Below are positions 19,640 through 34,634 of a stretch of 34,634 nt of DNA, piece after piece. The DNA is taken from NCBI GenBank assembly GCA_036399815.1, contig DASWMK010000137.1, positions 1 to 34,634 of the forward strand. The letters are read 5' to 3'. The translations under genes and the position numbers were made by a program. Origin of the DNA: Acidimicrobiales bacterium (lineage in GTDB: Bacteria; Actinomycetota; Acidimicrobiia; Acidimicrobiales; DASWMK01). Within the stretch, counting starts at the first letter, position 1, and every line of letters begins with the position of its first letter. The notes under the pieces are model-generated. The model was not told where the DNA came from, made no database searches, and saw only the letters and a program-made list of their open reading frames with translations.

Positions 19640-20493
19640 GCGGCCGGGACCTTCTCCATCCAGCGGTGGTAGGCGTCCTCGTCGTAGGTGCCGAAGAAGT
19701 CGGCCAGGGTGTCGAGCAGGTGGGCCGACGAGTCCGCCGCGTACAGGACGGGCTGGTACTTCGTGATGTCGTACTCGAGGGTGCCCATGGCCGGCACGTC
19801 GAGCGGGCGGATCTCGGCCTCGCGGAACACCTGGATCTCGCCGTAGGACGACAGGATCCCGGCGCCGTAGGCCTTCAGCTCGCCGTCCTCCCACACGACC
19901 CCGAACTCCAGGGTGAACCAGAACACCCGGCTGAAGAAGTCGAGGGACTCGGCGGTCTCGGCCCGCCGGGACGCCTGCCCGGCCAGCTGGTACACGTCCG
20001 CGAAGTCCCGGTTGGCCAGCATGTTGCCGTGCCCGACGATCTCGTGGATGACGTCCGGCTCCGGCGTGTACAGCGGCACCGACTCGTGGCGCAGGTACTG
20101 GGTCGACATGAACGTGCGGGCGGCCAGGCTGCCGTAGAACGTCCTCGTCGGCACGAGGCCGGGGACGGGGGCGATCCGGAAGTCGCTCGTCTCGAGCAGG
20201 CGCTCGGTGACCTCCGAGAGCTGGACGACCCGGTCCCGCGGGAGCCCCAGCCGCTCGACGCCGGTGAGGAAGTCCCTGGCGGCGTAGACCTCGTGGAGCT
20301 TGTCCAGCTCGGTCAGCACGGTCCGCCAGACGCCGTTCTCGACCTCGCTGTACGGCACGTCGGGGATGGCGCCGCCGGCCTCGTAGGAGCTCGAGATGGC
20401 GGCGATGGCGTCCCGCCTGGCCCGGTACGCGGGGTCCGAGAAGCCGGGGTGGTCCTCGGGGAGCTCGACCTTGGGCGCCGTCGTCGTCTGCAT
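19636..20493 (-). CDS. phhA: Phenylalanine 4-hydroxylase
   Basis: This 285-residue monodomain aromatic amino acid hydroxylase converts phenylalanine to tyrosine with tetrahydropterin and non-haem iron. The iron ligands are His150 and His155 in PEPDVIHEIVGHGNML and Glu196 in FWFTLEFGVV; the pterin/substrate blocks RTFMSTQYLRHESVPLYTPEPD and ILSSYGEIQVF are also clear. There is no regulatory ACT domain, as usual in bacteria. The ATG at 20493 begins a typical N-terminus. It is divergent from an Lrp/AsnC gene, a likely regulator, and followed by the coupled winged-helix gene. Confidence 0.96.
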   Translation of the reverse strand: MQTTTAPKVELPEDHPGFSDPAYRARRDAIAAISSSYEAGGAIPDVPYSEVENGVWRTVLTELDKLHEVYAARDFLTGVERLGLPRDRVVQLSEVTERLLETSDFRIAPVPGLVPTRTFYGSLAARTFMSTQYLRHESVPLYTPEPDVIHEIVGHGNMLANRDFADVYQLAGQASRRAETAESLDFFSRVFWFTLEFGVVWEDGELKAYGAGILSSYGEIQVFREAEIRPLDVPAMGTLEYDITKYQPVLYAADSSAHLLDTLADFFGTYDEDAYHRWMEKVPAA

Positions 20494-20548
20494 GCGCTAC
20501 TCCCGGATCAGAGGGTCAGGCGGTGACCGAGCTTTCGGATCGAAGGAG

Positions 20549-20577
20549 ATCGTGCGTCACCGGCTTCGCTTCGTCAA
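20549..20577 (-). promoter_or_regulatory. Candidate promoter of the phenylalanine hydroxylase gene
   Basis: Minus-strand TTGACG (20577-20572), a 17-base spacer and CACGAT (20554-20549). The leader would be about 50 bases. The same hexamer CACGAT occurs in the opposite orientation 30 bases away as the -10 of the Lrp gene, making a GATCGTG / CACGATC inverted repeat (20548-20554 and 20584-20590). Confidence 0.5.
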
Positions 20578-20583
20578 GTGTGG

Positions 20584-20589
20584 CACGAT
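20584..20589 (+). promoter_or_regulatory. -10-like box of the Lrp/AsnC gene
   Basis: CACGAT lies exactly 7 bases before the GTG at 20597, with no Shine-Dalgarno site. The spacing matches the leaderless pattern of other genes here, though the first base is C rather than T. Confidence 0.4.
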
Positions 20590-20596
20590 CGCGCCC

Positions 20597-21079
20597 GTGA
20601 GCGACAACGGGAGCCGCCGCCGGCCGCTCGACGACGTCGACCGCCGCCTGCTCGTCCTGCTCCGCCAGGACGCCCGCCAGACCAACGCCGCCCTGGCCCG
20701 GGAGGTCGGCATGACCCCGCCGGCCGTGGCCGACCGGCTCCGGCGCCTCGAGCGGGAGGGGGTGATCACCGGCTACCGGGTCGGCCTCGACGTCGAGGCC
20801 CTCGGCTACGGCTTCCCGGTGTTCCTCGCCGTCACCCTCGAGCACCACGGGATGGAGACGGTGAGGGCCTTCGTCGACGCCCTGGCCAAGCTGCCCGAGG
20901 TGGTCGAGATCCACCAGGTGACGGGCGGGCCCGACTTCTTCGTCAAGGTCGTGGCCAGGGACGTGGACGGCTACCGGGAGCTGCTCATGCGCCAGCTGGC
21001 CGAGGTGCCCGGCATCGACCGGGTCCACTCCCACATCATCCTCGACACGTTGAAGGACGACGAGCCCGACCCCGCCTAA
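20597..21079 (+). CDS. Lrp/AsnC-family transcriptional regulator
   Basis: This 160-residue regulator has an N-terminal helix-turn-helix (LDDVDRRLLVLLRQDARQTN, LAREVGMTPPAVADRLRRLEREGVITGY) and a C-terminal RAM domain for amino-acid sensing and oligomerisation (AVTLEHHGMETVRAFVDAL, EVVEIHQVTGGPDFFVKVVARD, PGIDRVHSHIILDTLK). Such proteins respond to amino acids. Being divergent from phenylalanine hydroxylase, it probably senses phenylalanine or tyrosine and controls that gene and itself. The GTG at 20597 gives a normal-length protein. The iron-type ABC operon follows 53 bases downstream on the same strand. Confidence 0.93.
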   Translation: MSDNGSRRRPLDDVDRRLLVLLRQDARQTNAALAREVGMTPPAVADRLRRLEREGVITGYRVGLDVEALGYGFPVFLAVTLEHHGMETVRAFVDALAKLPEVVEIHQVTGGPDFFVKVVARDVDGYRELLMRQLAEVPGIDRVHSHIILDTLKDDEPDPA

Positions 21080-21132
21080 CGCTCGCTCTGTGGCATGCTG
21101 CCCACCGAGGGGAACTGCGGAAGGGGGTCCGC

Positions 21133-22281
21133 GTGCGCCGGTTCCGACGCTCGAGGAGGTTCCTGGCCCTCGCCGTCGCTCTAGCCCTGGTGGCGGCGGC
21201 GTGCGGCGGCGACGACGACGACGGCGGCACGGACGCCGCCGGCGGGGACGAGGCGGGCCAGGAGGCCCCGGCCACCCCGTCGGTGCAGGCCGTGTACGAC
21301 GAGCTCGAGGGGCTGGAGGGCGAGGCCCGCACCCAGCGCCTGATCGAGCTGGCCGAGGCCGAGGACGCCGACCTCAGCTACTACACGTCGCTGAACGTCG
21401 ACGAGTCGGCCCCGGTGATCGAGGCGTTCTCCGACGCCTACGACATCGACGTCGACCTCTACCGGGCGTCGTCGTCGACCGTCCTCCAGCGGGTGATCCA
21501 GGAGGCCGACGCCGGGTTCGCCGGCGCCGACGCCATCCTGCTCAACGGGCCGGAGATGGCCGCGCTCGACGACGAGGGCCTGCTCCAGCCGTTCGAGAGC
21601 CCGCTCACCGAGGACATCGTCCCCGAGGCGGTGTTCGAGACCTGGGCGGGCGTCTACCTCAACCTGTTCGTCGCCGCCTGGAACACCGACCGGGTGGACG
21701 AGGGCGCCGCCCCCACCAGCTGGGAGGACGTGCTCACCGGCTACGACGGGTCGCTCGCCATGGAGCTCGGCGACTTCGACTGGTTCGCCACCCTGGTCCA
21801 GGGCTACTTCATGGACCAGCAGGGGATGAGCGAGGAGGAGGCGGTCGACGTGTTCCGCCAGGCGGCGGACGGGGCGAGGATCGTCGACGGCCACACGCTG
21901 ATGACCGAGCTGCTGGCGGCGGGGGAGTACGACGTCGCCGCCTCCGCCTACCACCACCGGGTGCAGCGGCTGGCCGGCGAGGGCGCGCCGATCACCTTCG
22001 AGCCGGCCGTGGAGCCGATCGTCATCCGGCCCAACGGCGTCGGCATCTACCGCGACACCGACGCGCCGGCGACCGCGCTGCTGTTCTGCGAGTTCATGAT
22101 GAGCGACGCCCAGGAGCTGCTCGTCGAGTTCGAGCGGACCCCGGCGAACACCACCGTCCAGGAGGGCGGCATCCCCGAGGGCTACGAGCTGCTCTCGGCC
22201 GACGTCGACGAGCTCAACCAGCAGCGTGACAAGTGGGAGGAGCTCTACGCCGAGGTGGTGGCCGAGGGGGACGGCGGCTAG
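21133..22281 (+). CDS. Iron(III)-type ABC transporter substrate-binding lipoprotein
   Basis: This 382-residue lipoprotein has an arginine-rich start, a hydrophobic helix and lipobox LVAAAC with Cys24, an acidic linker, then a type 2 periplasmic-binding fold. YYTSLNVDESAPVIEAFSDAYDIDVDLYR opens the first lobe; GADAILLNGPEMAALDDEGLLQPFESPL and RPNGVGIYRDTDAPATALLFCEFMMS are typical of the FbpA/FutA group. Ferric ion is the usual cargo, but phosphonate or thiamine relatives look alike. The GTG at 21133 has GGAAGGGGG 6 bases upstream. It is followed by permease and ATPase genes, forming a complete importer. Confidence 0.87.
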   Translation: MRRFRRSRRFLALAVALALVAAACGGDDDDGGTDAAGGDEAGQEAPATPSVQAVYDELEGLEGEARTQRLIELAEAEDADLSYYTSLNVDESAPVIEAFSDAYDIDVDLYRASSSTVLQRVIQEADAGFAGADAILLNGPEMAALDDEGLLQPFESPLTEDIVPEAVFETWAGVYLNLFVAAWNTDRVDEGAAPTSWEDVLTGYDGSLAMELGDFDWFATLVQGYFMDQQGMSEEEAVDVFRQAADGARIVDGHTLMTELLAAGEYDVAASAYHHRVQRLAGEGAPITFEPAVEPIVIRPNGVGIYRDTDAPATALLFCEFMMSDAQELLVEFERTPANTTVQEGGIPEGYELLSADVDELNQQRDKWEELYAEVVAEGDGG

Positions 22282-22285
22282 CCCG

Positions 22286-24016
22286 GTGGCGACGGTCGCG
22301 CTGGAGCCGGCGGCCGGCCGGGCCGGCGCCCGCACCCGCCTGCTGCGGGCCGTCCTCCGCCCGCAGACCGTCGTGCTGGGCGCGGTGGTGGCGGTGGTCG
22401 CCTACCTCGCGCTCGTCCCGCTCGGGTTCCTGCTCTGGAACACGTTCGTGGACGACGGCCGGCTGACCCTCGACGCCGTCACCGACGCCTACTCCCGGGC
22501 CGGGCTGCGCCCGATGGTGGTCAGCTCGCTGGTGTTCGCCGGCGGGTCGACCCTGCTCGCCGTCCCCCTCGGCACCGTCCTCGCCTACCTCGTCGTCCGC
22601 ACCGACCTGCCGGGCAAGGGCCTGATGTTCGCGGCGTCGCTGGTGCCGCTCGTCATCCCCGGGATCCTCCACACGATCGCCTGGATCTTCCTGCTCAGCC
22701 CGAACATCGGCATCTACAACGACGCGCTCGCCGTCCTACCGGGGGCGCCCCGCTTCGACGTCTTCTCGATGGGCGGGATGATCCTCGTCGAGGGCGTCCA
22801 CCTGTCGCCGCTGGTCTTCCTGCTGATGGTGGCCGCCTTCCGGTCGATGGACCCGGCGCTCGAGGAGTCGGCGGTGATGAGCGGCGCCCGGCTGCCGACG
22901 GTCGTGCGCCGCGTCACCCTCCCGCTCGTCCGCCCCGCGCTCTACGGCGCCGTGCTGATCATGGCGATCAGGGCGCTCGAGGCCTTCGAGGTGCCGGCCC
23001 TGCTCGGCATCCCCGGCGGCATCTGGGTGTTCACCTCCCAGATCTGGCGGTCGCTGCGGGGCTTCCCGCCCGACTACGCCTCGGCCGGCGCCTTCGCCGT
23101 CTCGCTCCTCGTCATCACCTCGGCCGGGGTGTTCGCCCACGGCCGGCTGTCCCGGCGGGGGCGGGCCTGGCAGACGGTGACCGGGCGGGGGTTCCGGCCC
23201 CGGCCCATCCCGCTCGGCCGGTGGCGGTGGCCGGCGTTCGGGCTGCTGACCGTGTGGTTCCTGCTCGTCGTCGCCGCGCCGGTGCTGGTCCTGCTGTACG
23301 TGTCGACCCAGCGGTACTACTCGTCGCCGTCGTGGTCGACGCTCGGCGACGCCAGCCTCGACAACTACCGCTACGTGTTCGACCACCCGCAGGCCATGCG
23401 GGCCCTGCGCAACTCGTTCCTGCTCGGCGTCGGCTCGGCCACCGGCGTCGTGTTCTTCACGGCGATGGCGGCGTGGCTCGTGGTCCGCACGAAGGCGCGG
23501 GGGCGGTGGGTCGTCGACAACCTGGCCACCCTGCCCCTCGTCGTGCCCGGCCTGGTGATGGGCGTCGCCCTGCTGTTCGTGTACCTGCGGTCGCCGGTGC
23601 CGGTGTTCGGCACGCTCTGGATCCTGTTCATCGCCTACTGCACCCGGTACCTGCCCTACGGGATGCGGTACTCGACCGGGTCGATGTACCAGGTGGCCGG
23701 CGAGCTCGAGGAGTCGGCCCAGGTGTGCGGGGCGACGTGGTGGCAGACGTTCCGGCGGATCGACCTGCCCCTCGTCATGCCCGGCCTCGTCGCCGGCTGG
23801 ATCTACATCGTGCTCGTGTCCGTGCGGGAGCTGTCGAGCTCGATCCTGCTCTACTCGCCGGGCAACGAGGTGCTGTCGGTCCTCATCTGGGAGCAGTGGG
23901 AGAACGGCCAGTTCACCGAGCTGGCCGCCCTCGGCGTCGTGATGGTGGCCGGCCTGCTGGTGCTCGTCATGGTGGCGCGGCGGCTGGGCGCGTCCGTGGG
24001 GCTGCGGGAGGCGTGA
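22286..24016 (+). CDS. Iron(III)-type ABC transporter permease, fused double domain
   Basis: This 576-residue inner-membrane protein has about twelve helices and two copies of the binding-protein-dependent permease domain. Each copy carries an EAA-type coupling loop: EESAVMSGARLPTVVRRVTL in the first half and EESAQVCGATWWQTFRRIDL in the second. This fused arrangement is typical of FbpB/SfuB transporters. The GTG at 22286 begins 4 bases after the binding-protein stop and just before the first charged stretch. The last four bases overlap the ATPase start (GTGA). Confidence 0.92.
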   Translation: MATVALEPAAGRAGARTRLLRAVLRPQTVVLGAVVAVVAYLALVPLGFLLWNTFVDDGRLTLDAVTDAYSRAGLRPMVVSSLVFAGGSTLLAVPLGTVLAYLVVRTDLPGKGLMFAASLVPLVIPGILHTIAWIFLLSPNIGIYNDALAVLPGAPRFDVFSMGGMILVEGVHLSPLVFLLMVAAFRSMDPALEESAVMSGARLPTVVRRVTLPLVRPALYGAVLIMAIRALEAFEVPALLGIPGGIWVFTSQIWRSLRGFPPDYASAGAFAVSLLVITSAGVFAHGRLSRRGRAWQTVTGRGFRPRPIPLGRWRWPAFGLLTVWFLLVVAAPVLVLLYVSTQRYYSSPSWSTLGDASLDNYRYVFDHPQAMRALRNSFLLGVGSATGVVFFTAMAAWLVVRTKARGRWVVDNLATLPLVVPGLVMGVALLFVYLRSPVPVFGTLWILFIAYCTRYLPYGMRYSTGSMYQVAGELEESAQVCGATWWQTFRRIDLPLVMPGLVAGWIYIVLVSVRELSSSILLYSPGNEVLSVLIWEQWENGQFTELAALGVVMVAGLLVLVMVARRLGASVGLREA

Positions 24017-25161
24017 CGGTGCGAGCGGCGGGGGCGGCGGACGCGGCGGACGCGGCGGTCGTGGTGCGCGACCTGCGCAAGGCCTACGCCGGGCGGGGCC
24101 GGCCGGTGATGGCCGTCGACGGGGTGTCCTTCGAGGTCGAGCCCGGGTCGATGTTCACCCTGCTCGGGCCGTCGGGGTGCGGGAAGACGACGACCCTGCG
24201 GTGCGTGGCCGGGCTGGAGCGGCCCGACTCGGGGACGATCACGGTCGCCGGCCGGACCCTGTTCGACGGCGACCGGCGGGTCAACGTGCGGGCCGACGAG
24301 CGGGGGCTCGGGATGGTGTTCCAGTCCTACGCCATCTGGCCGCACATGGACGTGTTCGCCAACGTGGCCTTCCCGCTGCGGGTGGGGAAGCGGTCGGCCC
24401 GGGTCGGGCGGGCCGAGGTGCGGCGGCGGGTCGAGGAGGCGTTGGCCACCGTGCAGCTGTCCGACCTCGCCGGCCGGCCGGCGACCGACCTGTCGGGCGG
24501 CCAGCAGCAGCGGCTGGCGCTGGCCCGGGCGCTCGTGATGCGGCCGCCGGTGCTGCTGCTCGACGAGCCGCTGTCCAACCTGGACGCCAAGCTGCGGGAG
24601 GAGATGCGCTTCGAGCTGAAGAGCCTCCAGCGCCGCACCGGGATCACCGCCCTGTACGTCACCCACGACCAGGTCGAGGCCCTGGCCATGTCGAACCGGG
24701 TGGCCGTCGTGCGGGCGGGCAGGATCGAGCAGGTCGGCCGGCCGCGGGAGATCTACGAGCGCCCGGCGACCCGCTTCGTCGCCGGCTTCATCGGCACGGC
24801 CAACTTCCTCGACGGCACCGTGCGGGCCAGGGAGCCGGGGCAGGCCTACCTGGTGGCGACGGCGGCCGGCGAGCTGTACGTCGGCTCCGAGGCCGACCAC
24901 GCCGTCGGCGCCACGGTGACGGTCGCCGTCCGGCCCGAGCGGGTGGCGCTGGAGAAGGGCCACACCCCGTCGCCCCGCCCCGGTTCGTGGAACGGCACGG
25001 TGACGGCCCGGGCCTTCCTCGGCGAGGCCGTCGACCACGTCGTCGACGTGTCCGGCGTCGACGTCAAGTGCCGCTGCAACCCGGCCGTCTCGATCCCCCC
25101 GGGCGAGCCCGTCACCCTGACGTTCGCCGAGAACGGCGCGTCACTGCTGCCGGCGCAGTAG
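24013..25161 (+). CDS. ABC transporter ATP-binding protein (FbpC/PotA type)
   Basis: This 382-residue ATPase has Walker A GPSGCGKTT (52-60), Q-loop MVFQSYAIWPHM, signature LSGGQQQR, Walker B VLLLDEPLSNLD, switch His in YVTHDQ, then a C-terminal TOBE/OB domain (from about 265, AVRPERVALEKG). It powers the fused permease encoded upstream. The start at GTG 24013 is set by the 4-base overlap; a second GTG is two codons later. Residues 8-17 are encoded by a 9-base tandem repeat giving Ala-Ala-Asp units before the first strand, with no expected effect on function. Confidence 0.93.
   Translation: MTVRAAGAADAADAAVVVRDLRKAYAGRGRPVMAVDGVSFEVEPGSMFTLLGPSGCGKTTTLRCVAGLERPDSGTITVAGRTLFDGDRRVNVRADERGLGMVFQSYAIWPHMDVFANVAFPLRVGKRSARVGRAEVRRRVEEALATVQLSDLAGRPATDLSGGQQQRLALARALVMRPPVLLLDEPLSNLDAKLREEMRFELKSLQRRTGITALYVTHDQVEALAMSNRVAVVRAGRIEQVGRPREIYERPATRFVAGFIGTANFLDGTVRAREPGQAYLVATAAGELYVGSEADHAVGATVTVAVRPERVALEKGHTPSPRPGSWNGTVTARAFLGEAVDHVVDVSGVDVKCRCNPAVSIPPGEPVTLTFAENGASLLPAQ
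24034..24060 (+). repeat. Three 9-bp tandem repeats near the ATPase start
   Basis: GCGGCGGAC occurs twice in tandem (24034-24051), followed by GCGGCGGTC (24052-24060), one base different. It encodes alanine-alanine-aspartate units at the N-terminus. Copy number could vary between strains without shifting the frame. Confidence 0.6.
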
Positions 25162-25166
25162 CTCGG

Positions 25167-25688
25167 CTAGTCGCCGCCGAAGACGTCGACGAGGTGGAGC
25201 AGGTCCTCGCGGCCGATGCGGACGAACACCTCGCGGGCGGCTCGGAGATGGGCCTCCCGCTCCTCGGGGGTCGACGCGGCGCGGGAGCGGTCGAGGTGGG
25301 CCATGCCGGCCGCCGTGCCGGGGCGGAGGCGGGCGAGGAGCGCGGCGGTCTCGGCGGCGAACTGCGCCTCGGGGTCGTCGGCCTCGACCTCGTAGGTCAT
25401 GGGGTGGACGACCACGCCGGGGAGGGCGTCGGTCTCCTCTCCCTCGATGGACAGCGCGTAGGCGCCGTCCAGGGCACGGGCCACCCGCAACGTCAGCTTG
25501 CGCACGGCGCCGTGCTCGACGAGGACCAGCAGGGCCGTGCCCCGCTCCGCGAGGTGCTGGCGCGTCCTCCTGCTCCTCGTCACCAGGCGGACCTCGGTCG
25601 CCTCGCGCTCGACCTCGCGGGGCGACAGCAGGCAGACGTGGGGCACGCCGTCCTCGCCCGACGTGAGCAGCAGGAGGACCTCGTTCAC
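25167..25688 (-). CDS. FMN-binding split-barrel (PPOX-type) protein of the UbiD cluster
   Basis: This 173-residue protein has an N-terminal half that looks like a pyridoxamine-phosphate-oxidase-type split barrel: NEVLLLLTSGEDGVPHVCLLSPREV, LVTRSRRTRQHLAERGTALLVLVE and TLRVARALDGAYALSIEGEE. Such folds bind flavin and often reduce or carry it. The C-terminal part is helical and charged. Its GTG start overlaps the ubiX stop by 4 bases, so it is made together with UbiX. A role in supplying or handling FMN for UbiX is a reasonable inference, not shown. The classic small third subunit of BsdBCD-type decarboxylases is a different, roughly 75-residue protein. Confidence 0.62.
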   Translation of the reverse strand: MNEVLLLLTSGEDGVPHVCLLSPREVEREATEVRLVTRSRRTRQHLAERGTALLVLVEHGAVRKLTLRVARALDGAYALSIEGEETDALPGVVVHPMTYEVEADDPEAQFAAETAALLARLRPGTAAGMAHLDRSRAASTPEEREAHLRAAREVFVRIGREDLLHLVDVFGGD

Positions 25689-26275
25689 CCCGACCAGCGG
25701 CGGAACAGGTCGTGGGCGATGCCGAACTGGTCGAGGACCTTGCCGGCGGTGTGGCGGAGCAGGTCGTCGATCGTCTGCGGGCGGTGGTAGAAGGCCGGCA
25801 CGGGCGGCAGGACGACGGCGCCGGCCAGGGTCGCCTGCTCCATGTTGCGCAGGTGCACGAGCGACAGCGGCGTCTCCCGCACGACCAGCACGAGCTTGCG
25901 CCGCTCCTTCAGGTGCACGTCGGCCGCCCTGGTCAGCAGGTTGTCGCCGATGCCGTGGGCCACCGAGGCCAGCGTGTGCATCGAGCACGGCATGACGACC
26001 ATGCCGGCCGTGAGGAACGAGCCCGACGAGATCGGGGCGGCCAGGTCGGACGGGTCGTGGACCACGTCGGCCAGGGCCTCCACCGACGCCGGGTCGCCGT
26101 CCATCTCGTGGCGGATCGTCTGGCGGGCCCCGGCCGACAGCACCAGGTGGACCTCGACGGTGCCCAGCTCCTTCAGCGCCGTCAGCAGGGTGACGCCGAG
26201 CTGGGGGGCGCTCGACCCCGACATGCCGACGACCAGCCGGGGCCGGCCGCTCGGCGACCCGCCTAGAGGACCCAC
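25685..26275 (-). CDS. ubiX: UbiX-family flavin prenyltransferase
   Basis: This 196-residue protein has UbiX motifs: LVVGMSGSSAPQLGVTLLTAL (FMN phosphate loop), GSFLTAGMVVMPCSMHTLASVAHG (with the conserved Ser/Cys turn), ADVHLKERRKLVLVVRETPLS and PAFYHRPQTIDDLL. It joins dimethylallyl phosphate to reduced FMN, making the prenylated FMN that UbiD enzymes need. The GTG at 26275 lies 13 bases inside the end of the UbiD gene, so the enzyme and its cofactor maker are translationally linked. The start gives about a dozen residues before the first strand. It overlaps the FMN-split-barrel gene by 4 bases at its end. Confidence 0.93.
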   Translation of the reverse strand: MGPLGGSPSGRPRLVVGMSGSSAPQLGVTLLTALKELGTVEVHLVLSAGARQTIRHEMDGDPASVEALADVVHDPSDLAAPISSGSFLTAGMVVMPCSMHTLASVAHGIGDNLLTRAADVHLKERRKLVLVVRETPLSLVHLRNMEQATLAGAVVLPPVPAFYHRPQTIDDLLRHTAGKVLDQFGIAHDLFRRWSG

Positions 26276-27747
26276 GACCACCGGTCCCTCGTCCGCTGCT
26301 TCTCGGCCGGCTCGGGGCCGATGGCCGGCGGGAACTGGTCCCGCCACTCCCACGGCCGGGTGGCGTCGATGATGACCCGGGAGTTCAACCCCTTGTGGTC
26401 CGGGTCGATGGCCGGGTCGAGCGGCCCGCTCCACGTCCGCCGCAGCACGTGGTAGTCCCGCTCCGGGTCGGCCCGCGTGCAGATGGCCCAGATGACCTCG
26501 TTCACGTCGGCCACGTCCACGTCGTCGTCGACCACGACCGTGATCCGGCCGAGGTAGGCGCCGGTGCGGCAGGACGTCGCCACCTGGCCGGCCTGGGTGG
26601 CGTGGCCCGGGTAGCGCTGGTGGACGGCGACCACGTTGAACAGCCGGCACCCGCCGACCCCGTGGCACCAGGCGGCCGTCACGTCGGGCACGCCGGCCAG
26701 GCGGATCTCCCGCAGCAGGTTGGCGCTGCGCAGGTACTGGCGGAAGCGGTGGGCCTCGTAGGGCGGCTTCTCGGGCGGCACGCCGAGGATGATCGGGTCG
26801 TCGCGGAAGTAGACGGCGGCCACCTCGAACACCGGCTCCTCGCGGCCGCCGGACGCGTAGTAGCCGGTCCACTCGCCGAAGGGGCCCTCGACGGCCATCC
26901 GGTCGGGCCGGAGGAACCCCTCGACCGCGATCTCGGCATGGGCCGGGATCGGCAGCCCGGTGTGGCGGCCCTCGACGCACGGGACGGCCCGGCCCCGCAC
27001 GCCGCCGGCCCACTCCATCTCGGAGAGGCCGGGCGCCATCTCCAGGCACGACGTGAGGAACAGCAGCGGGTCCTCGCCGCAGAGCACGACGGCCGGCATG
27101 GGCTCGCCCCGCTCGAACCAGGCGTCCCGGTGCAGGCGGCCGTGCTTGCCGGGGGAGATGTAGAGCCCGGTCGTGCGCCGGTCGTGGACCTGCACCCGGT
27201 AGGTGCCCATGTTCACCCAGTCGCCCTCGGGCCCCTTGGTGATCACGCAGTCGCCGGTGCCGAGGTAGCGGCCCCCGTCCTCGGGGTGCCACAGCGGGGT
27301 CGGGAAGGCGAGCAGGTCGACGTCGTCGCCCTCCATGACGTTCTCGGTGACCGGCCCGGACGGCACCATCTCGGGCGCCACCGGCTCCGTGCCGTCCATC
27401 AGCCGCTGCCACCGGTCGATCAGCTCCCACGGCCCGATGGTGGTCGGCAGCCCCAACGTGACCGCCAGGCGGCTGCGCTCGCCCTGGGCGTTGACCAGCA
27501 CCCGGAACCCGTCGGGGTAGCCGGGGATGCGGTCGAACAGCACGGCCGGGGCGCCGTCGGTGTGGTGCAGCATCTCGGTGACCCGGCCGATGTCCTCCTC
27601 CCAGCCGACTCCCTCCAGCACCCGCAGCTCGCCGAGGGCGTCGACCATGCGGAGCCAGTCCCGCAGGTCCTCGTGGCCCCGGCCGGCCCGCACCTCGTCG
27701 GCGTCGACCGCCGGCCCGTCCAGCTTCCCCAGCCTGGCCTCGCTCAC
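26263..27747 (-). CDS. ubiD: UbiD-family prenylated-FMN decarboxylase
   Basis: This 494-residue enzyme performs reversible decarboxylation of unsaturated or aromatic acids. The prenyl-FMN and metal block is GTGDCVITKGPEGDWVNMG followed by TYR with Arg184. The catalytic acids are Glu287 and Glu292 in AVEGPFGEWTGYY. The spacing Arg-103-Glu-5-Glu matches the E-R-E triad of known members (104 and 5 in fungal Fdc1). The substrate is not readable; UbiD enzymes act on hydroxybenzoates, cinnamates, heteroaromatic acids and others. The GTG start overlaps the stop of the preceding bicupin gene by 4 bases. The UbiX gene follows directly, so active cofactor can be made alongside. Confidence 0.95.
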   Translation of the reverse strand: MSEARLGKLDGPAVDADEVRAGRGHEDLRDWLRMVDALGELRVLEGVGWEEDIGRVTEMLHHTDGAPAVLFDRIPGYPDGFRVLVNAQGERSRLAVTLGLPTTIGPWELIDRWQRLMDGTEPVAPEMVPSGPVTENVMEGDDVDLLAFPTPLWHPEDGGRYLGTGDCVITKGPEGDWVNMGTYRVQVHDRRTTGLYISPGKHGRLHRDAWFERGEPMPAVVLCGEDPLLFLTSCLEMAPGLSEMEWAGGVRGRAVPCVEGRHTGLPIPAHAEIAVEGFLRPDRMAVEGPFGEWTGYYASGGREEPVFEVAAVYFRDDPIILGVPPEKPPYEAHRFRQYLRSANLLREIRLAGVPDVTAAWCHGVGGCRLFNVVAVHQRYPGHATQAGQVATSCRTGAYLGRITVVVDDDVDVADVNEVIWAICTRADPERDYHVLRRTWSGPLDPAIDPDHKGLNSRVIIDATRPWEWRDQFPPAIGPEPAEKQRTRDRWSWVL

Positions 27748-28727
27748 GAGGCGTCCTCCAGGTAGACGACCCGGTCGTAGCCGAGCAGCTTGAACAGCCG
27801 GTTCTGGCCGGAAACGAGGCGCAGCGGCTCGTCGCCGTCGGCGACGTGCTGGGCGACCGTGTTGGTGGGCACGTAGAGCGTGTCGCCGGGCCGGAGGTCG
27901 TGGCGCGTGGGCTCCTCGGCGATGCGGGCGTGGTAGCGGTCGTCGAGCTCGGCGGCCACCTCCCAGTGCAGGCTGTGCCCGGTCCCGGACAGCACGTAGA
28001 GGACCTCGTCGGCCATGTGCCAGCGCCGGGCCGTGCGCCCGCCGGCCGGCACCTCCATCTCGAACACGTCGACGCTGAACGTGCGCACGTCGGTCCGCTC
28101 GGGCGACGACAGCACCCGCACCCGGCCGAGCGGCGTGTCCGTCCACTCGGTGTCGGCCGCCGTCACCACCTTCCTCCGCTGCCCGACCCCCTCGGTCCAC
28201 AGCTGCGACCAGTCGACCCTCGGGCCGAAGCCGGGCCGCTCGAAGGGCGCCGACCGGCCCTGCTGCACGAGGCCGAGGTACATCCACGCGCACTTCGCCT
28301 TCATGACGAGGCACGTCGCCGGCTCGTCGTAGGGGTTGAAGTGGCGGTGCACCGAGTCCGTGTGGACGAGGACGAGGTCGCCCTGCGACCAGTCGTGGCG
28401 CTCGCCGTCGTGGACCTCGTAGCCCCGCCCCTCCAGGATGTAGAAGGCGGCCTCGTTCTGGTGCCCGTGCCCGTGGTTCGAGGACCGGGGCGGGAGGTGC
28501 ACGAAATGGACCTGGAGGGACTGGGTGAGGAACGGCTCGTCGCCCGGCCCGATCCGCCACCACGTCCTCGACCGGGCCGAGTCGCCCGAGTGGGCGACCC
28601 TGCCGTCGTCGACCACCACCGAGTCGTCCCGCACCCTCGGCGCGGCGAGCTGGCGGCGGCGGTGCTCGTCGAGGCCGTACGCCTCGGAGGTGATGCCCCG
28701 CAGGAACACCCGTCCCGACCCGCTCAC
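27744..28727 (-). CDS. Bicupin protein, putative dioxygenase-like metalloenzyme (second of the cluster)
   Basis: This 327-residue protein has two cupin barrels. The first has a strong metal site: His85, His87, His89 and Glu92 in NHGHGHQNEAAFYILEGRG, with the distal His129 in VHRHFN. The second has RRWHMADEVLYVLSGTGHSLHW and a distal His in NTVAQHVADG. Bicupins of this size include gentisate-type ring-cleaving dioxygenases, oxalate decarboxylases and isomerases. Its place between the transporter and UbiD suggests it acts on the same compound before or after decarboxylation. The GTG start overlaps the MFS stop by 4 bases and the end overlaps UbiD by 4. No signal peptide is seen. Confidence 0.8.
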   Translation of the reverse strand: MSGSGRVFLRGITSEAYGLDEHRRRQLAAPRVRDDSVVVDDGRVAHSGDSARSRTWWRIGPGDEPFLTQSLQVHFVHLPPRSSNHGHGHQNEAAFYILEGRGYEVHDGERHDWSQGDLVLVHTDSVHRHFNPYDEPATCLVMKAKCAWMYLGLVQQGRSAPFERPGFGPRVDWSQLWTEGVGQRRKVVTAADTEWTDTPLGRVRVLSSPERTDVRTFSVDVFEMEVPAGGRTARRWHMADEVLYVLSGTGHSLHWEVAAELDDRYHARIAEEPTRHDLRPGDTLYVPTNTVAQHVADGDEPLRLVSGQNRLFKLLGYDRVVYLEDAS

Positions 28728-29929
28728 GCTGCTGCCCTCCTCGTGCTGGTGAACGCCATCGCCCCGAGCACGGCGACGTACGCGGCGGCCAGCCCGCCGA
28801 TCAGCGGGCGCACGCCCACCTCGGCCTCGAGCAGCAGGCCGCCGACGACGAGGATGGCCGTGTTCCAGGCGCCGTACAGCCGCTCCTGGCCCGACAGCAG
28901 CGCGGTGCGCTGGGCGCCCGTCCACCCGCCGATGGCCCGGTCCAGGTTGGTCATCGTGACCGGGCGGACGACGCCGCCGCCGAGCCCGAGGCCGAACACG
29001 CCGAGCAGCGCGCCCCACAGCGTCGGCACCGCGCCGATCACGGCGAGGGCGGTGGCGCACATCGCCATCGACAGCCAGCCGAGGCGCCGGGGCCCGAAGC
29101 GGTCGGCCAGGCGGCCGCTGTTGCGGGCGACGACCATGGACGTCAGCCCGTAGATGCCGAGGATCACGCCGAACCAGCCGACCTCGACCTCCAGCACCAC
29201 GAAGAACAGGTAGGGCAGGAAGCCGACGTAGGGGGCCAGCGCGAAGGCCCGGGTGACGGCGTAGTAGTGGAGCCAGAAGCGGTCGGCGCCGGGCAGGGCC
29301 GGTGGCGGGCCGGCCGGGCCCCGACCGCCGGCCGGGGCGGCCGCCTCGACCTCCCGCATGCGCAGCACGGCGGCGAAGGCGGCGGCCGACACGACCACCG
29401 ACGCGACGAACGGCAGGTGCTCGTCGACCGTGAACAGCAGGGCGCCGATCACGCCGCCGATCAGCGCGCCGACGAAGATGCCGGTCGCGCTGGTCCGCTC
29501 GTAGCGGCCGTAGAGGTCGCGGTCGCCGCCGGCCAGCGCGCCGAGGAGGGCCGAGTCGGTGCCGGCGGCCAGGCTGTAGCCGAGCGCGCCGATCAGCTGG
29601 CCGGGGAGCGCCGTCCCGAGGTCGGGGCTGATCGCCAGCAGGCCGACGCCCACGACCTTCAGGGCCTCGCCGGCGCCGACGACGGTCCGCAGCGACCACC
29701 GCTCGACCAGCCGGCGGCTCCACGGCGAGGCCACCACGATCACCAGCCCGTAGGCGGCCAGCAGCAGCTCGACGGCGAGGATCGAGAGGCCGCCGGTCAG
29801 CAGGTAGACGAGCAGGACGGGCAGGTGGAAGTAGAACCGGGACAGGAAGCGGTAGGCGACGAACAGCCGCAGGTCGCGCTCGTCGGCCCCGGCCCGCCGG
29901 TCGCGATGGTCCTGCTGGTCCCTCGCCAT
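28724..29929 (-). CDS. MFS transporter
   Basis: This 401-residue membrane protein has about twelve hydrophobic helices in two halves, separated by a charged proline/glycine-rich loop near residues 200-220. LADRFGPRRLGW in the second half is the typical loop motif of the major facilitator superfamily, and SPWSRRLVERWSLRTVVGAGEALK is the equivalent in the first. It should move a small molecule across the inner membrane using the proton gradient. In this operon it is the probable importer (or exporter) of the pathway compound. The ATG at 29929 overlaps the EutA-like stop as TGATG; a GTG one codon earlier would give GTGATG. Confidence 0.85.
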   Translation of the reverse strand: MARDQQDHRDRRAGADERDLRLFVAYRFLSRFYFHLPVLLVYLLTGGLSILAVELLLAAYGLVIVVASPWSRRLVERWSLRTVVGAGEALKVVGVGLLAISPDLGTALPGQLIGALGYSLAAGTDSALLGALAGGDRDLYGRYERTSATGIFVGALIGGVIGALLFTVDEHLPFVASVVVSAAAFAAVLRMREVEAAAPAGGRGPAGPPPALPGADRFWLHYYAVTRAFALAPYVGFLPYLFFVVLEVEVGWFGVILGIYGLTSMVVARNSGRLADRFGPRRLGWLSMAMCATALAVIGAVPTLWGALLGVFGLGLGGGVVRPVTMTNLDRAIGGWTGAQRTALLSGQERLYGAWNTAILVVGGLLLEAEVGVRPLIGGLAAAYVAVLGAMAFTSTRRAAA

Positions 29930-31461
29930 CACCGGGCTCCGGCGAAGAGGAGGGACTTGACGACGACGGGCACGACCCCGGCCGGGCGGAGCACCTCGCC
30001 GACGTCGACGTAGTCGAGGTCGCCGAGGGCCAGCCCGTCGAGGCACACGACCGGGCGGGGGCAGCCCAGCTCCGTCCGGAGGATGCGGCCGACGGCCATG
30101 CCGACGTCGCCGTCGAGGAGGATGACGAGGGGCGAGCCGCCGGGGAGGGCGGCCGTCCCGTCGAGCACGGCCCGCGCCAGCGCCAGCAGCCGACGGTGGC
30201 TGGGCGGGCCGGTGAAGGGGACGGCGACGGCCACGACGGGCGGAAGCCGGTCCTCCACGGCGAGGCGGTCGACGGCCCGGCGGACGGCACCGGCGTCGAC
30301 GACCTCCCCGTCGGCCACCGCCGGGCGCACGACCGGGACGTTGCGGAGGGGCAGCACCGCCTCGCCGCCGAGCTCGATGGTCGACCCGCTCACCTGCGCG
30401 GTGAACTGGGACGCGCCCACCACCGTCGCCCTGATCCCCTCGCCGGCGTCCTCCACCGGCAGGCCGGCCAGGCCGGCGTCGACGGCCCGGCGCAGGTGGG
30501 CGGCGAGGCGGGGGGCGAGGTCGCCGAAGTGGCGCCGCTCCCGGCCGAACAGGTACTCGGCCACGCCGCCGGACACGGTCACCACCTCGGGGCGGGGCGA
30601 CGTGGGCAGGGGCTCGGTGAGGGCGACGGCCGGCCCCGGCGCCGGCAGCGGGCGGCCCTGGACGGCGGCCACGAGCACGGTGGCCATGGTCGCGGCGATG
30701 GCGTCCTCCTCGCCCTCCCCGAGCCGGTCGCCGACCTCGACGGCCACCCCGGTGGCCGCGGCGGCCGCCCGCCCGGCGTCCTCCAGCCGCACGACCCGGC
30801 GGTCGCCGTCCAGGGCGATCAGCCGGCCGCCCACGGCGACGGCCGCGGTCGCCAGCACGGCCCCGTCCCGGACGAGCGCCAGCTTGGTGGTGCCCCCGCC
30901 GACGTCGACGTGGAGGTGGGTGCGGCGGTCGCGGCGGGACCGGGCCACGGCGCCCGACCCGTGGGCGGCGAGGATCGCCTCCAGGTGGTGGCCGGCGGTG
31001 GCGCACACGAACCGGCCCGACTCGGCGGCGAACCGGCGGGCCAGCGCCTCGGCGTTCGCCCGCCGCAGCGCCTCGCCGGTGAGGATCACGGCGCCGGTGT
31101 CCACGTCGGCCGGCCCGATCCCGGCGTCCGCGTACGCCTTGCCGACGAGCGCCTCGATGCCGTCGACGTCGATCAGCCCGTCGTCCCGGTACGGGGTGAG
31201 CACCACGTCGGAGCGGTGGAGCACGGCCCGGTCGACGACCACGAACCGGCTCGACAGCGCCGTCCCCGCCCGCTGGAGCACGACCCGGGAGACCATCAGG
31301 TGCGACGTGGACGAGCCGACGTCGAGCCCGACGGTGGTGAGCTCGAGGGTGTCGGCCCGCCACAGCGGGTCGCCCCGCTCGGTCACCTCCGGGCCGTGGT
31401 GATGGTCGTGATCGTGATGGTCGTGATGGTGATGGTGGTGGTGCCCGTCCCCGCCGGCCAT
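29929..31461 (-). CDS. eutA: EutA-like reactivating ATPase with histidine-rich N-terminus
   Basis: This 510-residue protein resembles EutA, the actin/Hsp70-fold ATPase that restores ethanolamine ammonia-lyase by swapping damaged cobalamin. Phosphate loop 1 is GLDVGSSTSHLMVSR (45-59), then IDVDGIEALVGKAYADAG, the family block DTGAVILTGEALRRANAEAL (121-140), FVCATAGHHLEA, GSGAVARS and phosphate loop 2 VDVGGGTTKLAL (185-196). Unusually, residues 7-22 contain 13 histidines and 3 aspartates, a likely metal-binding tail. No lyase genes (eutB, eutC) are near; its neighbours are cupins, a UbiD system and an amidohydrolase. I infer it activates, repairs or loads metal into one of these. The ATG is 4 bases after the previous stop. 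Confidence 0.82.
   Translation of the reverse strand: MAGGDGHHHHHHHDHHDHDHHHGPEVTERGDPLWRADTLELTTVGLDVGSSTSHLMVSRVVLQRAGTALSSRFVVVDRAVLHRSDVVLTPYRDDGLIDVDGIEALVGKAYADAGIGPADVDTGAVILTGEALRRANAEALARRFAAESGRFVCATAGHHLEAILAAHGSGAVARSRRDRRTHLHVDVGGGTTKLALVRDGAVLATAAVAVGGRLIALDGDRRVVRLEDAGRAAAAATGVAVEVGDRLGEGEEDAIAATMATVLVAAVQGRPLPAPGPAVALTEPLPTSPRPEVVTVSGGVAEYLFGRERRHFGDLAPRLAAHLRRAVDAGLAGLPVEDAGEGIRATVVGASQFTAQVSGSTIELGGEAVLPLRNVPVVRPAVADGEVVDAGAVRRAVDRLAVEDRLPPVVAVAVPFTGPPSHRRLLALARAVLDGTAALPGGSPLVILLDGDVGMAVGRILRTELGCPRPVVCLDGLALGDLDYVDVGEVLRPAGVVPVVVKSLLFAGAR
31396..31443 (-). repeat. CAC/CAT repeat encoding the histidine-rich tail
   Basis: Sixteen codons in a row are His or Asp (13 His, 3 Asp), seen on the plus strand as GTGATG/GTGGTG repeats. 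This simple-sequence tract lies at codons 7-22 of the EutA-like gene and could vary in length by slippage in multiples of three bases. Confidence 0.85.
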
Positions 31462-31465
31462 GGCG

Positions 31466-32551
31466 TCAGCCGGTGCGGGCCGGCATCCGGCACTCCACGC
31501 CGTTCTTCGCCAGCTCGGCCTCGAACGTCGCCCGGATGGACGGGTCCTCGTCCTCGTACTCGATCTGGTCGCCGCCCTCCTTCACGTCCTTGGTGATCCC
31601 GAGGTAGTTGAACATGTGGTACTTCGAGCTGCCCCAGCGGATCGGCATGTACCGGGCCGGCTCGGCGCCGACGTTGAAGTGCTGGTGGAACCACATGTCC
31701 GGGGGCACGAACACCGAGCCCTCCTTCCAGTCCACCCGCTCGAGGGGCCGGCCCTCCCGCCACATCAGGGTGTAGCCCTTGCCCGACAGCACCACGATGT
31801 GGGCGCCCGGCCCGTGGCGGTGGGCCTTCTTGTAGGTGCCGACCGGGAACTCCGAGACGCTCGCGCACATGGTCGAGTCGGCCAGCTCGAAGAAGGCGTT
31901 GCGGCCGCCGGCGCCCCGCTCGCTCCAGTCCTGGAGGGCGAAGCCGCCGACGTCGGGGACGAAGTTCGTCTCCCAGATCCGGCCTGGGTGCTGGCGCCCC
32001 TCGCCGGAGAAGTAGGCCTCGTCGTCGGGCCGGAACCGGTCGGTGAACCGGAACGGGTTGTCGAAGAGGAACTCCCGGTTGTGGAACAGGTCGAGCATCA
32101 GCGGCGCCGTCGTCACCGCGTAGAAGCGGGCGGGCACGTCGCCCGACGTGTTGAAGTGCTGGTACCAGGCGTTGAGCGGGACGGCGAACAGGCTGCCGGC
32201 CTTCCACTCGAACTGGTGGCGGGGGCCGTCGTCGAGCCAGACGGCCGTTGCCCCCTGCCCGCTCAGCACGAACACGAACAGCTCGAACAGGTGGCGCCTC
32301 GCGTTGAGCTCGCCGCCCGGGGGGATCTCGGCCACGTAGGCGTCGTTGGTGCGGCCCGACCCGTAGAGGTCGACGAAGGACGCCGGCCCGCCGAGCCAGT
32401 CCCAGTGGGCCAGCTCGACGGTGCGGAGGTCGGGCACCGAGAACCCGCGCACCACGGGGATGCCCTGCTCGGCGACCCACTGCTCGTACGGGCTCGTCTC
32501 GTAGCCGGCGAGCATGAAGCTGCGCCGGAGGTCGTCCTCGAAGCTGCTCAT
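31466..32551 (-). CDS. Bicupin protein (first of the cluster)
   Basis: This 361-residue protein has two cupin barrels. The first includes NARRHLFELFVFVLSGQGATAVW and the distal block NAWYQHFNTSG. The second has KKAHRHGPGAHIVVLSGKGYTLMW and PPDMWFHQHFNVGAEPARY. The second site has a fuller set of histidines (AHRHGPGAH, plus HQHFN), while the first barrel has only one of the usual proximal histidines, so the second is the more likely catalytic site. It shares the H-x-H-F-N turn with the other bicupin in the cluster (VHRHFN), suggesting a common origin. The function is unknown; dioxygenase, decarboxylase and isomerase are all possible. It follows the cyclodeaminase-like gene by 22 bases, with GAGGGAG before its ATG, and precedes the EutA-like gene by 4. 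Confidence 0.8.
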   Translation of the reverse strand: MSSFEDDLRRSFMLAGYETSPYEQWVAEQGIPVVRGFSVPDLRTVELAHWDWLGGPASFVDLYGSGRTNDAYVAEIPPGGELNARRHLFELFVFVLSGQGATAVWLDDGPRHQFEWKAGSLFAVPLNAWYQHFNTSGDVPARFYAVTTAPLMLDLFHNREFLFDNPFRFTDRFRPDDEAYFSGEGRQHPGRIWETNFVPDVGGFALQDWSERGAGGRNAFFELADSTMCASVSEFPVGTYKKAHRHGPGAHIVVLSGKGYTLMWREGRPLERVDWKEGSVFVPPDMWFHQHFNVGAEPARYMPIRWGSSKYHMFNYLGITKDVKEGGDQIEYEDEDPSIRATFEAELAKNGVECRMPARTG

Positions 32552-32573
32552 CGATCTCCCTCGTGCGTCGCGG

Positions 32574-33689
32574 TCAGTTCTTCACGTCCTGGAGGAACCA
32601 CTCGGTCGGCAGCTCCCGCCCGAGCCCGGCCTCCCTGGCCCGCCGGTACGCCACCGCGCCGACGGCCGCGAACTGGAGGCCGTGGTTCCCGATGTTGTGC
32701 CAGAACGTCACCTGCTCGTCGCTCGTGCGCCCCGAGACCTCGCCCCGCAGGTGGTCGGCGAAGGTCGGGAGGCGCATGTCGTAGCCCATCTCGTGCTCCT
32801 TGCCCGACGGCAGCCGGGCCAGCTCCTCGTCCGAGCCGGCGGCGATGGCGACCGGGCTGTGGCCCCGGCCGAGCACGACCCGGTCGAGGTCGGCGATGCC
32901 CTTCGGCCAGCCGGACACGCCCTGCTTGATGCGGACCTCGCAGCGCTCGAACACCTCGCGGGAGATCTCCGCCGGGCCCACGTTGGTGAGGTGCTGGCCC
33001 GGCTCCAGCCACTCGGCCCGCAGGGTGGGCGCCATGGACGACGTGCACGTGGCGACGATGTCCACCCCGGCGACGGCCTCCTCGGGCGAGTCGACCGGTC
33101 GCACCTCGAAGCCGAGCCGGTCCTCCATCTCCTTGGCGAAGGCCTCCTTGTGCCCCGGCGTCGGGCTCCACACCTTGGCCAGGGTGACCGGCCGCACGGC
33201 CCGGAAGGCGTCGAGGTAGACGCGGGCCATCCCGCCGCTGCCGAGCATGCCGACCGTCGACGACCCCTCCCGGGACAGCAGCCGGGCGCCGATGCCGGCC
33301 CCGCCGCCCACCCGCAGGTGCTGGATCACGCCGTCGTTGAGGATGGCCAGCGGCTCGCCGTCCTTCGTGCTGAACAGCAGCACGAGGCCGCAGTAGAGGC
33401 CGGGGCGGACGCAGTACTTCGTCTCGTACCACCGGCCGTGCTCGTCGCGCGGCCACGAGATGACGTCGGACTTCAGGCGGATGGCGTACACGCCCTCGGA
33501 CGCGATCGCGCCCTCCATGTTCCCCGGGCGGTAGTACTCGCCCGGGTCGTCGTTCGGCACGTACAGGTCGAAGCGCGGGCGGTTGATCGCGTCGCCGGTG
33601 AGCAGGCCCCTGAAGGCCTTCTCCTGGCTCTCGATGCAGTCCTCGATCGAGAGGACCCGCTCGACGACCTCGTTGTCGATCAGCAGCAT
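32574..33689 (-). CDS. Ornithine cyclodeaminase / mu-crystallin family protein
   Basis: This 371-residue protein has a Rossmann NAD(P)-binding motif MLGSGGMAR (148-156). It also has the family's substrate-side blocks: RLKSD with Lys73, LLFSTKDGEPLAILNDG, IQHLRVGGGAGIGARLL and VGPAEISREVFERCEVRI. The family includes ornithine cyclodeaminase, alanine dehydrogenase and cyclic ketimine reductases, so it probably oxidises, reduces or deaminates an amino or imino acid. It is longer than typical members (about 310-350), with an insertion around residues 41-100 (YVPNDDPGEYYRPG). The ATG start comes 3 bases after the amidohydrolase stop. In this pathway it may act on a nitrogen-containing intermediate, by inference. 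Confidence 0.85.
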   Translation of the reverse strand: MLLIDNEVVERVLSIEDCIESQEKAFRGLLTGDAINRPRFDLYVPNDDPGEYYRPGNMEGAIASEGVYAIRLKSDVISWPRDEHGRWYETKYCVRPGLYCGLVLLFSTKDGEPLAILNDGVIQHLRVGGGAGIGARLLSREGSSTVGMLGSGGMARVYLDAFRAVRPVTLAKVWSPTPGHKEAFAKEMEDRLGFEVRPVDSPEEAVAGVDIVATCTSSMAPTLRAEWLEPGQHLTNVGPAEISREVFERCEVRIKQGVSGWPKGIADLDRVVLGRGHSPVAIAAGSDEELARLPSGKEHEMGYDMRLPTFADHLRGEVSGRTSDEQVTFWHNIGNHGLQFAAVGAVAYRRAREAGLGRELPTEWFLQDVKN

Positions 33690-33692
33690 CGG

Positions 33693-34634
33693 TCAGGCTC
33701 CGTAGAGGCGCTCGGCGTTGGCGGACAGGACGAGGTGGCGCTCGTCGGCGGGCAGCGGGGCGAGGGCGGCGGCCACCGCCTCGCCGCTCGCCGGCCACGT
33801 CGACGTGCCCAGGGGGAAGTTGGTGGCCCACAGCACCCGCTCGGGCCGCACCTTGCCGTCGCGGTCGGGCCGCACCGGCTCGTACGAGCCGACGAGGTGG
33901 CACTGGCGGGCGAACACCTCGGACGGCAGCAGCGGGTAGGTGTCGACGTTCAGCCGGTCGACCTGGACGAGGTAGTCCATGGTCTCGAGGGTGAACGCCC
34001 CCCACCCGACGGAGTCCTCGGCGAACACGACCATCAGGTCGGGGTGGGGCACGAGGAGCTGGGACAGCAGGTAGTTGGCCATCACGAGGGCGGAGCTGAA
34101 CGGCCGGGTGACCGACTCGAAGGCGTCGGCCACCTCGGGCGGGAAGCCGGCCCACGGCGGGGCCTGGAGCTGGGGGGCGCCGCCGGCGTGGAAGGCGACC
34201 GGCACGCCGGCGGCGGCGACGGCGTCCCAGAGGCGGCCGTAGCCGGGGTCGCCCACGTCGGGCACGTCGCGGAGCGACGACGGCAGCGCGGGGTAGACGA
34301 CCCCCCGGTGGCCGAGGCCCACGGCCCGCTCCAGCTCGGCCACGGCCGCCTCGGGCGGCCACAGCGGGAGCAGGCACTGGGGGACGAAGCGGTCGCTGGC
34401 CGCCGCCCACTCCTCGACCAGCCAGTCGTTCCAGGCCCGCACGCACGCCTGCTCCAGCTCGGGGTCGGCGAGGCGGCCGAGCGCCTCGCCGGCCAGCCCG
34501 GCGACCGTCGGGTACAGCACCGAGGCGTCGACCCCGTCGTCGTCCATGGCCGCCAGGCGGGCGGCCGGGTCCCACGCCGCCCGCGGCACGTCGGGCCACC
34601 GGTGGGGCTCGGGGTCGTCGTCGGCCAGCAGGGC
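33693..34634 (-). CDS. Amidohydrolase_2-family protein, 5' end outside window
   Basis: The frame is open to the right edge, so the N-terminus, including the expected metal-binding H-x-H, lies beyond it; 313 residues are visible. Recognisable blocks are MDDDGVDASVLYPTVAG, RFVPQCLLPLWPPEAAVAELERAV, the metal histidine in VPVAFHAGG, VVFAEDSVGWGAF and VLWATNFPLGTSTWP. Family members (PF04909) include hydrolases and non-oxidative decarboxylases such as ACMSD. At the last motif, the usual metal Asp of SDYPH is Asn (ATNFP) and the His is Leu, suggesting a changed metal site. A GTG 15 codons inside the visible frame is an unlikely start, as it falls mid-domain. It is the first visible gene of the nine-gene run. 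Confidence 0.85.
   Translation of the reverse strand, partial: ALLADDDPEPHRWPDVPRAAWDPAARLAAMDDDGVDASVLYPTVAGLAGEALGRLADPELEQACVRAWNDWLVEEWAAASDRFVPQCLLPLWPPEAAVAELERAVGLGHRGVVYPALPSSLRDVPDVGDPGYGRLWDAVAAAGVPVAFHAGGAPQLQAPPWAGFPPEVADAFESVTRPFSSALVMANYLLSQLLVPHPDLMVVFAEDSVGWGAFTLETMDYLVQVDRLNVDTYPLLPSEVFARQCHLVGSYEPVRPDRDGKVRPERVLWATNFPLGTSTWPASGEAVAAALAPLPADERHLVLSANAERLYGA

Follow-up and report, generated by a model that had tools for sequence, protein, structure and literature searches.

EutA, an ATPase of the ASKHA class, rescues a cobalamin enzyme, and other ASKHA proteins work as substrate-activating subunits. Gentisate dioxygenase, a bicupin, uses a 3-His metal site, and to our knowledge the usual view is that cupin dioxygenases work without a dedicated helper that uses ATP. 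Here we describe a nine-gene operon of an Acidimicrobiales bacterium, located in a window of 34634 bases that spans all of contig C137 in a draft genome of 4.16 Mb, in which the gene for a bicupin, CUP1, lies next to one for a EutA-like ATPase. The conserved unit is this two-gene core, whose pairing across two bacterial phyla is well supported. A search of the open-licence literature for EutA-like, ASKHA or reactivase proteins with a cupin, and for EutA with UbiD or gentisate, found no description of such a module, and it is the new element of the operon. Its two genes are:

31466 to 32551, minus strand: CUP1, a bicupin in which H244, H246 and H289/H291 are kept in the C-terminal cupin and the N-terminal cupin is degenerate.
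29929 to 31461, minus strand: EutA-like ASKHA ATPase with a His-rich N terminus (HHHHHHHDHHDHDHHH).

Gene families were called by Pfam and NCBIfam profile searches; the bulk searches scored the best few candidates per genome and absences are provisional, and a full search of the 12 carriers of the second class described below confirmed the pattern. Among 396 genomes of the window's phylum the EutA search recovered 12 strong matches of at least 299 bits and none between 40 and 299 bits, comprising six canonical EutA proteins (>500 bits) and six EutA-like proteins in five genomes, the window's included. Every one of these EutA-like genes (6/6) adjoins a CUP1 gene, and a CUP1 profile search of the same 396 genomes returned exactly the same five. 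In a second class, that of locus L003 from a Rhodospirillales metagenome-assembled genome, 12 of 385 genomes contain CUP1 and 11 of these 12 the EutA-like protein, the twelfth having a EutA-like fragment that runs off a contig edge. Over all loci 33 of 39 EutA-like genes directly adjoin CUP1, mostly on the same strand and no more than 190 bases apart. The pairwise distances among CUP1 proteins and among their EutA-like partners are correlated at 0.865 over 33 pairs, a value reached by none of 5000 shuffles of partners within genomes (mean 0.18, standard deviation 0.11). As the shuffling was confined within genomes, species history is controlled for, and it is specific CUP1 and EutA-like paralogues that travel together. 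The two genes are thus obligately paired and coevolve. Their copy numbers are nonetheless unequal, with 73 CUP1 against 29 EutA-like genes in the full search of carriers and 15 against 2 in genome G558, and tandem CUP1 arrays end in a single EutA-like gene; this speaks for a helper that several CUP1 proteins share and against a fixed subunit. No EutA-like protein turned up in the sampled relatives of the same order, suggesting that its occurrence is sporadic and that it was possibly acquired. The first-pass annotation had handled the ATPase as incidental, and it turned out to be the most informative part of the operon. The comparison of neighbourhoods across genomes that it called for recovered a recurrent CUP1-EutA pair, which UbiD joins on separate occasions.

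The EutA-like protein matches PF06277 over its full length (370 bits, cut-off 27) but falls below the NCBIfam EutA equivalog cut-offs (296 of the required 598 bits, and lower). In the tree a branch with 100/100 support separates the EutA-like proteins from canonical EutA; a eutBC context was seen in archaeal reference loci. The window's genome and 15 of 16 further carriers lack EutB (PF06751), which excludes the usual task of EutA in most of them. The nucleotide-binding motifs DxGSS, DxGGGT and SGG are conserved, and D47, G49, S50, D186, G188-T191 and S297-G299 are invariant, suggesting that the ATPase is probably active. The window's protein has 13 histidines within the 44 residues before the ATPase domain; at least three histidines precede the domain in 19 of 36 EutA-like proteins, six of which also have His-rich C termini. 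Comparing these tails with canonical EutA carries little weight, as 6 of 8 canonical sequences began only where the domain begins. Versions with 10-16 histidines in the last 30 residues, in addition to N-terminal His clusters, are encoded at L003 (9760-11451), L101-L103, L137 and L138. A NicO-type metal transporter or a CobW-type GTPase is found near several CUP1/EutA-like loci. Two-sequence alignments gave poor AlphaFold models of CUP1 and its EutA-like partner (mean predicted local distance difference test scores of 40 and 43), which were set aside.

In the second cupin of CUP1, H244/H246 are present in 53 and H289/H291 in 57 of the 58 sequences, giving a site of the 3-His type, whereas the first cupin retains a nearly constant E90 without the metal-type histidines. 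CUP2, the second bicupin of the operon, shows the complementary arrangement, with the motif in its first cupin, and is a weak relative of gentisate 1,2-dioxygenase (E 2e-7); a search of plasmids for CUP2 gave no match. Against the gentisate 1,2-dioxygenase model TIGR02272 (cut-off 442 bits) CUP1 scores 18 and CUP2 25 bits. Given its distance from the family cut-off and its weak sequence match, CUP1 was not classed as a gentisate dioxygenase.

The pair is embedded in an uninterrupted series of nine co-oriented genes that fills the minus strand from 25167 to 34634, the other seven being:

33693 to 34634, minus strand: AHD, an amidohydrolase-family protein (PF04909) whose 5' end lies beyond the contig and whose nearest structures are DitZ and PtmU3.
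32574 to 33689, minus strand: OCD, an NAD(P)-dependent protein of the ornithine cyclodeaminase/mu-crystallin family (Pfam/NCBIfam).
28724 to 29932, minus strand: major facilitator superfamily (MFS) transporter (Pfam/NCBIfam).
27744 to 28727, minus strand: CUP2, with a metal-site motif in its N-terminal cupin.
26263 to 27747, minus strand: UbiD-family decarboxylase dependent on prenylated flavin mononucleotide (prenyl-FMN), with the UbiD motifs conserved.
25685 to 26275, minus strand: UbiX-family flavin prenyltransferase.
25167 to 25688, minus strand: small PNPOx-like split-barrel protein, presumably flavin-binding (structure match).

The tight junctions reported by the first-pass annotation held on recomputation, the widest gap being 22 and the longest overlap 13 bases. 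AHD and OCD lie 3 bases apart, OCD and CUP1 22, and CUP1 and the EutA-like gene 4; the EutA-MFS, MFS-CUP2, CUP2-UbiD and UbiX-last gene junctions overlap by 4 bases each, and UbiD and UbiX by 13 bases if the UbiX start is taken at 26275. This packing makes the single transcript proposed earlier very plausible. Because the contig ends at the window edge, the 5' end of the amidohydrolase gene and the start of the operon are missing. The families named earlier are all present, with Pfam E-values of 5e-26 (Amidohydro_2), 2e-33 (OCD), 2e-110 (EutA), 1e-14 (MFS_1), 5e-62 (UbiD), 2e-41 (Flavoprotein) and 9e-15 and 3e-22 for the two Cupin_2 proteins. The ninth protein has no Pfam match and was placed by the PNPOx-like structures 9srg/9nk0 (E 1e-7). 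What stood only in part is the view of the nine genes as one conserved pathway: the complete set was found in no other sampled genome, whereas the CUP1-EutA core is conserved and OCD recurs.

UbiD, the only one in this genome, passes TIGR00148 (258 bits, cut-off 244.85) and conserves the motifs NxGTYR, GKH, AEIxxEG and EGPFGEW, and UbiX passes TIGR00421 (233 bits, cut-off 108.9); against the more specific VdcC and VdcB models (cut-offs 650 and 290) the operon reaches 260 and 254 bits, both below. Elsewhere UbiD lies near CUP1-EutA at L108, together with a UbiX 55.6% identical to that of the window, and about 10 kb away at L109, and it adjoins the EutA-like gene at L121-L124. All the UbiD-linked EutA-like proteins of these six loci fall in the window's clade of 12 rows (support 98/92). 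Carriers rich in UbiD have a UbiD gene close to 6 of 8 EutA copies from this clade versus 0 of 16 others (Fisher 2e-4, the lineages not being independent). The linked UbiD proteins themselves do not form one clade and require at least four changes on the UbiD tree, on which the window's UbiD is closest to ones without EutA linkage. A single conserved UbiD-EutA unit was rejected on this tree and on the linkage of UbiD to only 9 of 50 CUP1 arrays, and UbiD seems to have joined on at least two occasions. The loci L084 and L087-L089 (L121-L124) have UbiD followed by the EutA-like gene, with small cupins and no CUP1; at L121-L123 the EutA-like gene is followed in turn by a NicO-type metal transporter that has a His-rich loop. 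The UbiD-rich carriers of the class of L003, with genomes of 2.4-4.1 Mb and 6-15 CUP1 genes each, encode 37 (G745), 37 (G823), 36 (G655), 28 (G549), 13 (G827), 11 (G558), 11 (G751) and 9 (G661) UbiD genes.

OCD matches PF02423 at 116 bits (cut-off 24) and passes no equivalog cut-off. Homologues 41-50% identical to it occur beside or near CUP1-EutA at L029, L129, L131 and L132, which makes OCD a recurrent partner. Other neighbours of the pair include RraA-type aldolases, Rieske oxygenases, isochorismatase-like hydrolases and tripartite tricarboxylate transporters, and L024, a locus of Sinorhizobium mexicanum, encodes a true 4-oxalomesaconate hydratase, LigJ (E 3e-166 to 2gwg). Further neighbours seem to resemble 4,5-dihydroxyphthalate decarboxylase; a search gave them only a weak match to a binding protein. 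The genes that surround the pair in other genomes are thus ones of aromatic acid catabolism. LigJ was rejected as a fixed pathway partner, being present in 9 of 17 carriers and not in the window's genome. The catabolic role suggested by the first-pass annotation fits UbiD and UbiX scores above the general family cut-offs and related loci with 4-oxalomesaconate hydratase, Rieske oxygenases and carboxylate transporters. Its alternatives for AHD, an amidohydrolase or a non-oxidative decarboxylase, survive in part: the family is that of the amidohydrolases, but DitZ and PtmU3, with 8sm7 also close, are nearer than decarboxylases, the closest structures matching at E-values of 2e-26 and 8e-22. PtmU3 and the 8SM set are amidohydrolase-related dinuclear oxygenases (PMC10811679, PMC10401708). 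A conserved protein of about 165-195 residues without a Pfam match is encoded either between a Rieske oxygenase gene and the CUP1-EutA region or adjacent to them at L003 (9272-9763), L072 (4097-4681) and L073 (12162-12683).

Outside the operon, and convergent with it, lies one further set of transport genes:

21090 to 25161, plus strand: ABC (ATP-binding cassette) importer, consisting of a substrate-binding protein, a permease and an ATPase.

Its permease is 58% identical to a permease near CUP1-EutA at L029, and the importer may belong to the same system, with which it is likely associated. Just upstream of the importer genes a biopterin-dependent aromatic amino acid hydroxylase is divergent from an Lrp/AsnC-type regulator (19636-20493 and 20396-21079).

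The operon is real and plausibly catabolic in role. We tentatively favour, at close to but short of even confidence, an arrangement built around CUP1-EutA in which the EutA-like protein serves as a factor that uses ATP to activate metallo-cupins of the CUP1 type or to load them with metal. CUP1 would most likely be an O2-using metallo-bicupin of gentisate-dioxygenase-like design with its metal in the C-terminal cupin, and the EutA-like protein most likely its ATP-dependent partner, loading, exchanging or rescuing the metal centre by analogy with the rescue of a cobalamin enzyme by EutA; its His-rich ends would hold metal. UbiD, with prenyl-FMN from UbiX, would decarboxylate an aromatic or unsaturated acid; the product would be oxidised or cleaved by CUP1 and possibly by CUP2; OCD and AHD would act on intermediates; and the MFS protein, perhaps with the neighbouring ABC importer, would move substrates. 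We infer the dioxygenase activity of CUP1, the activation or metal-loading role of its partner, the substrate and the order of steps. An activation or metal-loading factor is preferred because of, in decreasing order of strength, the strict pairing and coevolution with CUP1, the unequal copy numbers, the kinship to reactivases, the His-rich ends and the NicO and CobW neighbours.

Several observations weigh against this interpretation. Four of the 39 EutA-like genes stand next to UbiD (74-81 bases) and have no cupins but small ones in the vicinity, and a further two border on neither CUP1 nor UbiD, one of them on a short contig. Because these six do not adjoin CUP1, the client of the EutA-like protein is perhaps not always CUP1. 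Conversely, in CUP1-expanded genomes most CUP1 copies are without an adjoining EutA-like gene. The match of CUP1 to gentisate dioxygenase is weak (E 6e-8), the N terminus is not His-rich in 17 of 36 EutA-like proteins, and the metal-gene neighbours stem from few lineages. UbiD lies within 10 kb of 9 of 50 CUP1 arrays where 5.2 are expected (p 0.07), barely above chance. The roles of CUP1 and the EutA-like protein, and contact between them, are predictions made from sequence.

At the level of the pair the main rival is a single ATP-using enzyme that has CUP1 and the EutA-like protein as its two subunits and is comparable to acetone carboxylase or HyuA/HyuB, with the ASKHA subunit phosphorylating or activating the substrate and the cupin subunit completing the reaction. 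Stable subunits would be expected to show obligate adjacency and trees that match, and substrate activation is an established task of ASKHA proteins; however, an excess of 73 over 29 copies, or 15 over 2 in one genome, and tandem CUP1 arrays with one ATPase gene do not suit fixed subunits, and the nearest Pfam family is the reactivase EutA and not HyuA, so that we consider this arrangement unlikely. That the EutA-like protein is a true cobalamin-enzyme reactivase, acting on an adenosylcobalamin enzyme encoded at an unlinked site, would accord with its full-length match to the EutA family (E 2e-110), but it forms a separate clade, tracks CUP1 in presence, place and tree, and occurs without EutB in the window's genome and nearly all other carriers, making such a role very improbable.

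The alternative for the operon as a whole is a loose assembly, with CUP1-EutA serving one function and UbiD/UbiX, CUP2, OCD and AHD another, cotranscribed without forming one pathway. The confinement of the nine-gene set to one sampled genome, the at least four changes needed on the tree of EutA-linked UbiD proteins and the near-chance linkage of UbiD to CUP1 arrays (9/50 versus 5.2) are all in line with it. Set against these are the overlapping junctions of the operon and its possession of the genome's sole UbiD, the spacing of 74-81 bp between UbiD and the EutA-like gene in four loci, the UbiD and UbiX near CUP1-EutA at L108, and the preference of UbiD for the window's EutA clade in UbiD-rich genomes (6/8 versus 0/16, from lineages that are not independent); on balance the loose assembly seems rather doubtful. 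Beyond this operon, the favoured activation or metal-loading role raises the possibility, which we hold a shade more tentatively than that role itself, that EutA-type ATPases are, as a family, dedicated activators of the metal centre in a cupin oxygenase class and are driven by ATP, extending the B12 reactivase principle to non-heme cupin enzymes of aromatic acid catabolism. A EutA-type ATPase strictly coinherited and coevolving with one cupin family predicts a new activation or metal-delivery step. It would also correct automatic annotation, which names these genes reactivating factors of ethanolamine ammonia-lyase where the genome lacks the enzyme itself. Carriers in which CUP1 rises to 15 copies and UbiD to about 37 indicate an ability to break down aromatic acids that has been little studied.

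Compared with described systems, AHD finds its closest structures among the amidohydrolase-related dinuclear oxygenases PtmU3, DitZ and SfbO (PMC10811679, PMC10401708) and matches PF04909, but it has TNFPL in place of their xDYPH, with Asn where one usual metal Asp would stand, and its N-terminal ligands lie beyond the contig. LigJ, at the end of the gallate/protocatechuate 4,5-cleavage route, sets related CUP1-EutA modules in aromatic acid catabolism; its absence from the window's genome implies that the substrate differs here or exits elsewhere. The adjacent UbiD and UbiX genes recall VdcBCD and the phenylphosphate carboxylase beta subunit, which are the best named models, yet they score below the specific cut-offs (260/650 and 283/469 bits) and are embedded with cupins and an ATPase. 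With gentisate 1,2-dioxygenase and other bicupin ring-cleaving dioxygenases (3bu7, 2d40, MabB) the operon's cupins share the bicupin form, a His metal site and a weak match of the metal-binding cupin, but they reach only 18-43 bits against cut-offs of 442-650, and CUP1 differs in having its metal site in the C-terminal cupin and in being paired with an ATPase. The EutA-like protein shares with EutA (PF06277) the fold family over its full length, the conserved nucleotide-binding motifs and a gene beside that of the presumed client; it differs in forming a separate clade, in occurring without EutBC, in its often His-rich termini and in its proposed cupin client.

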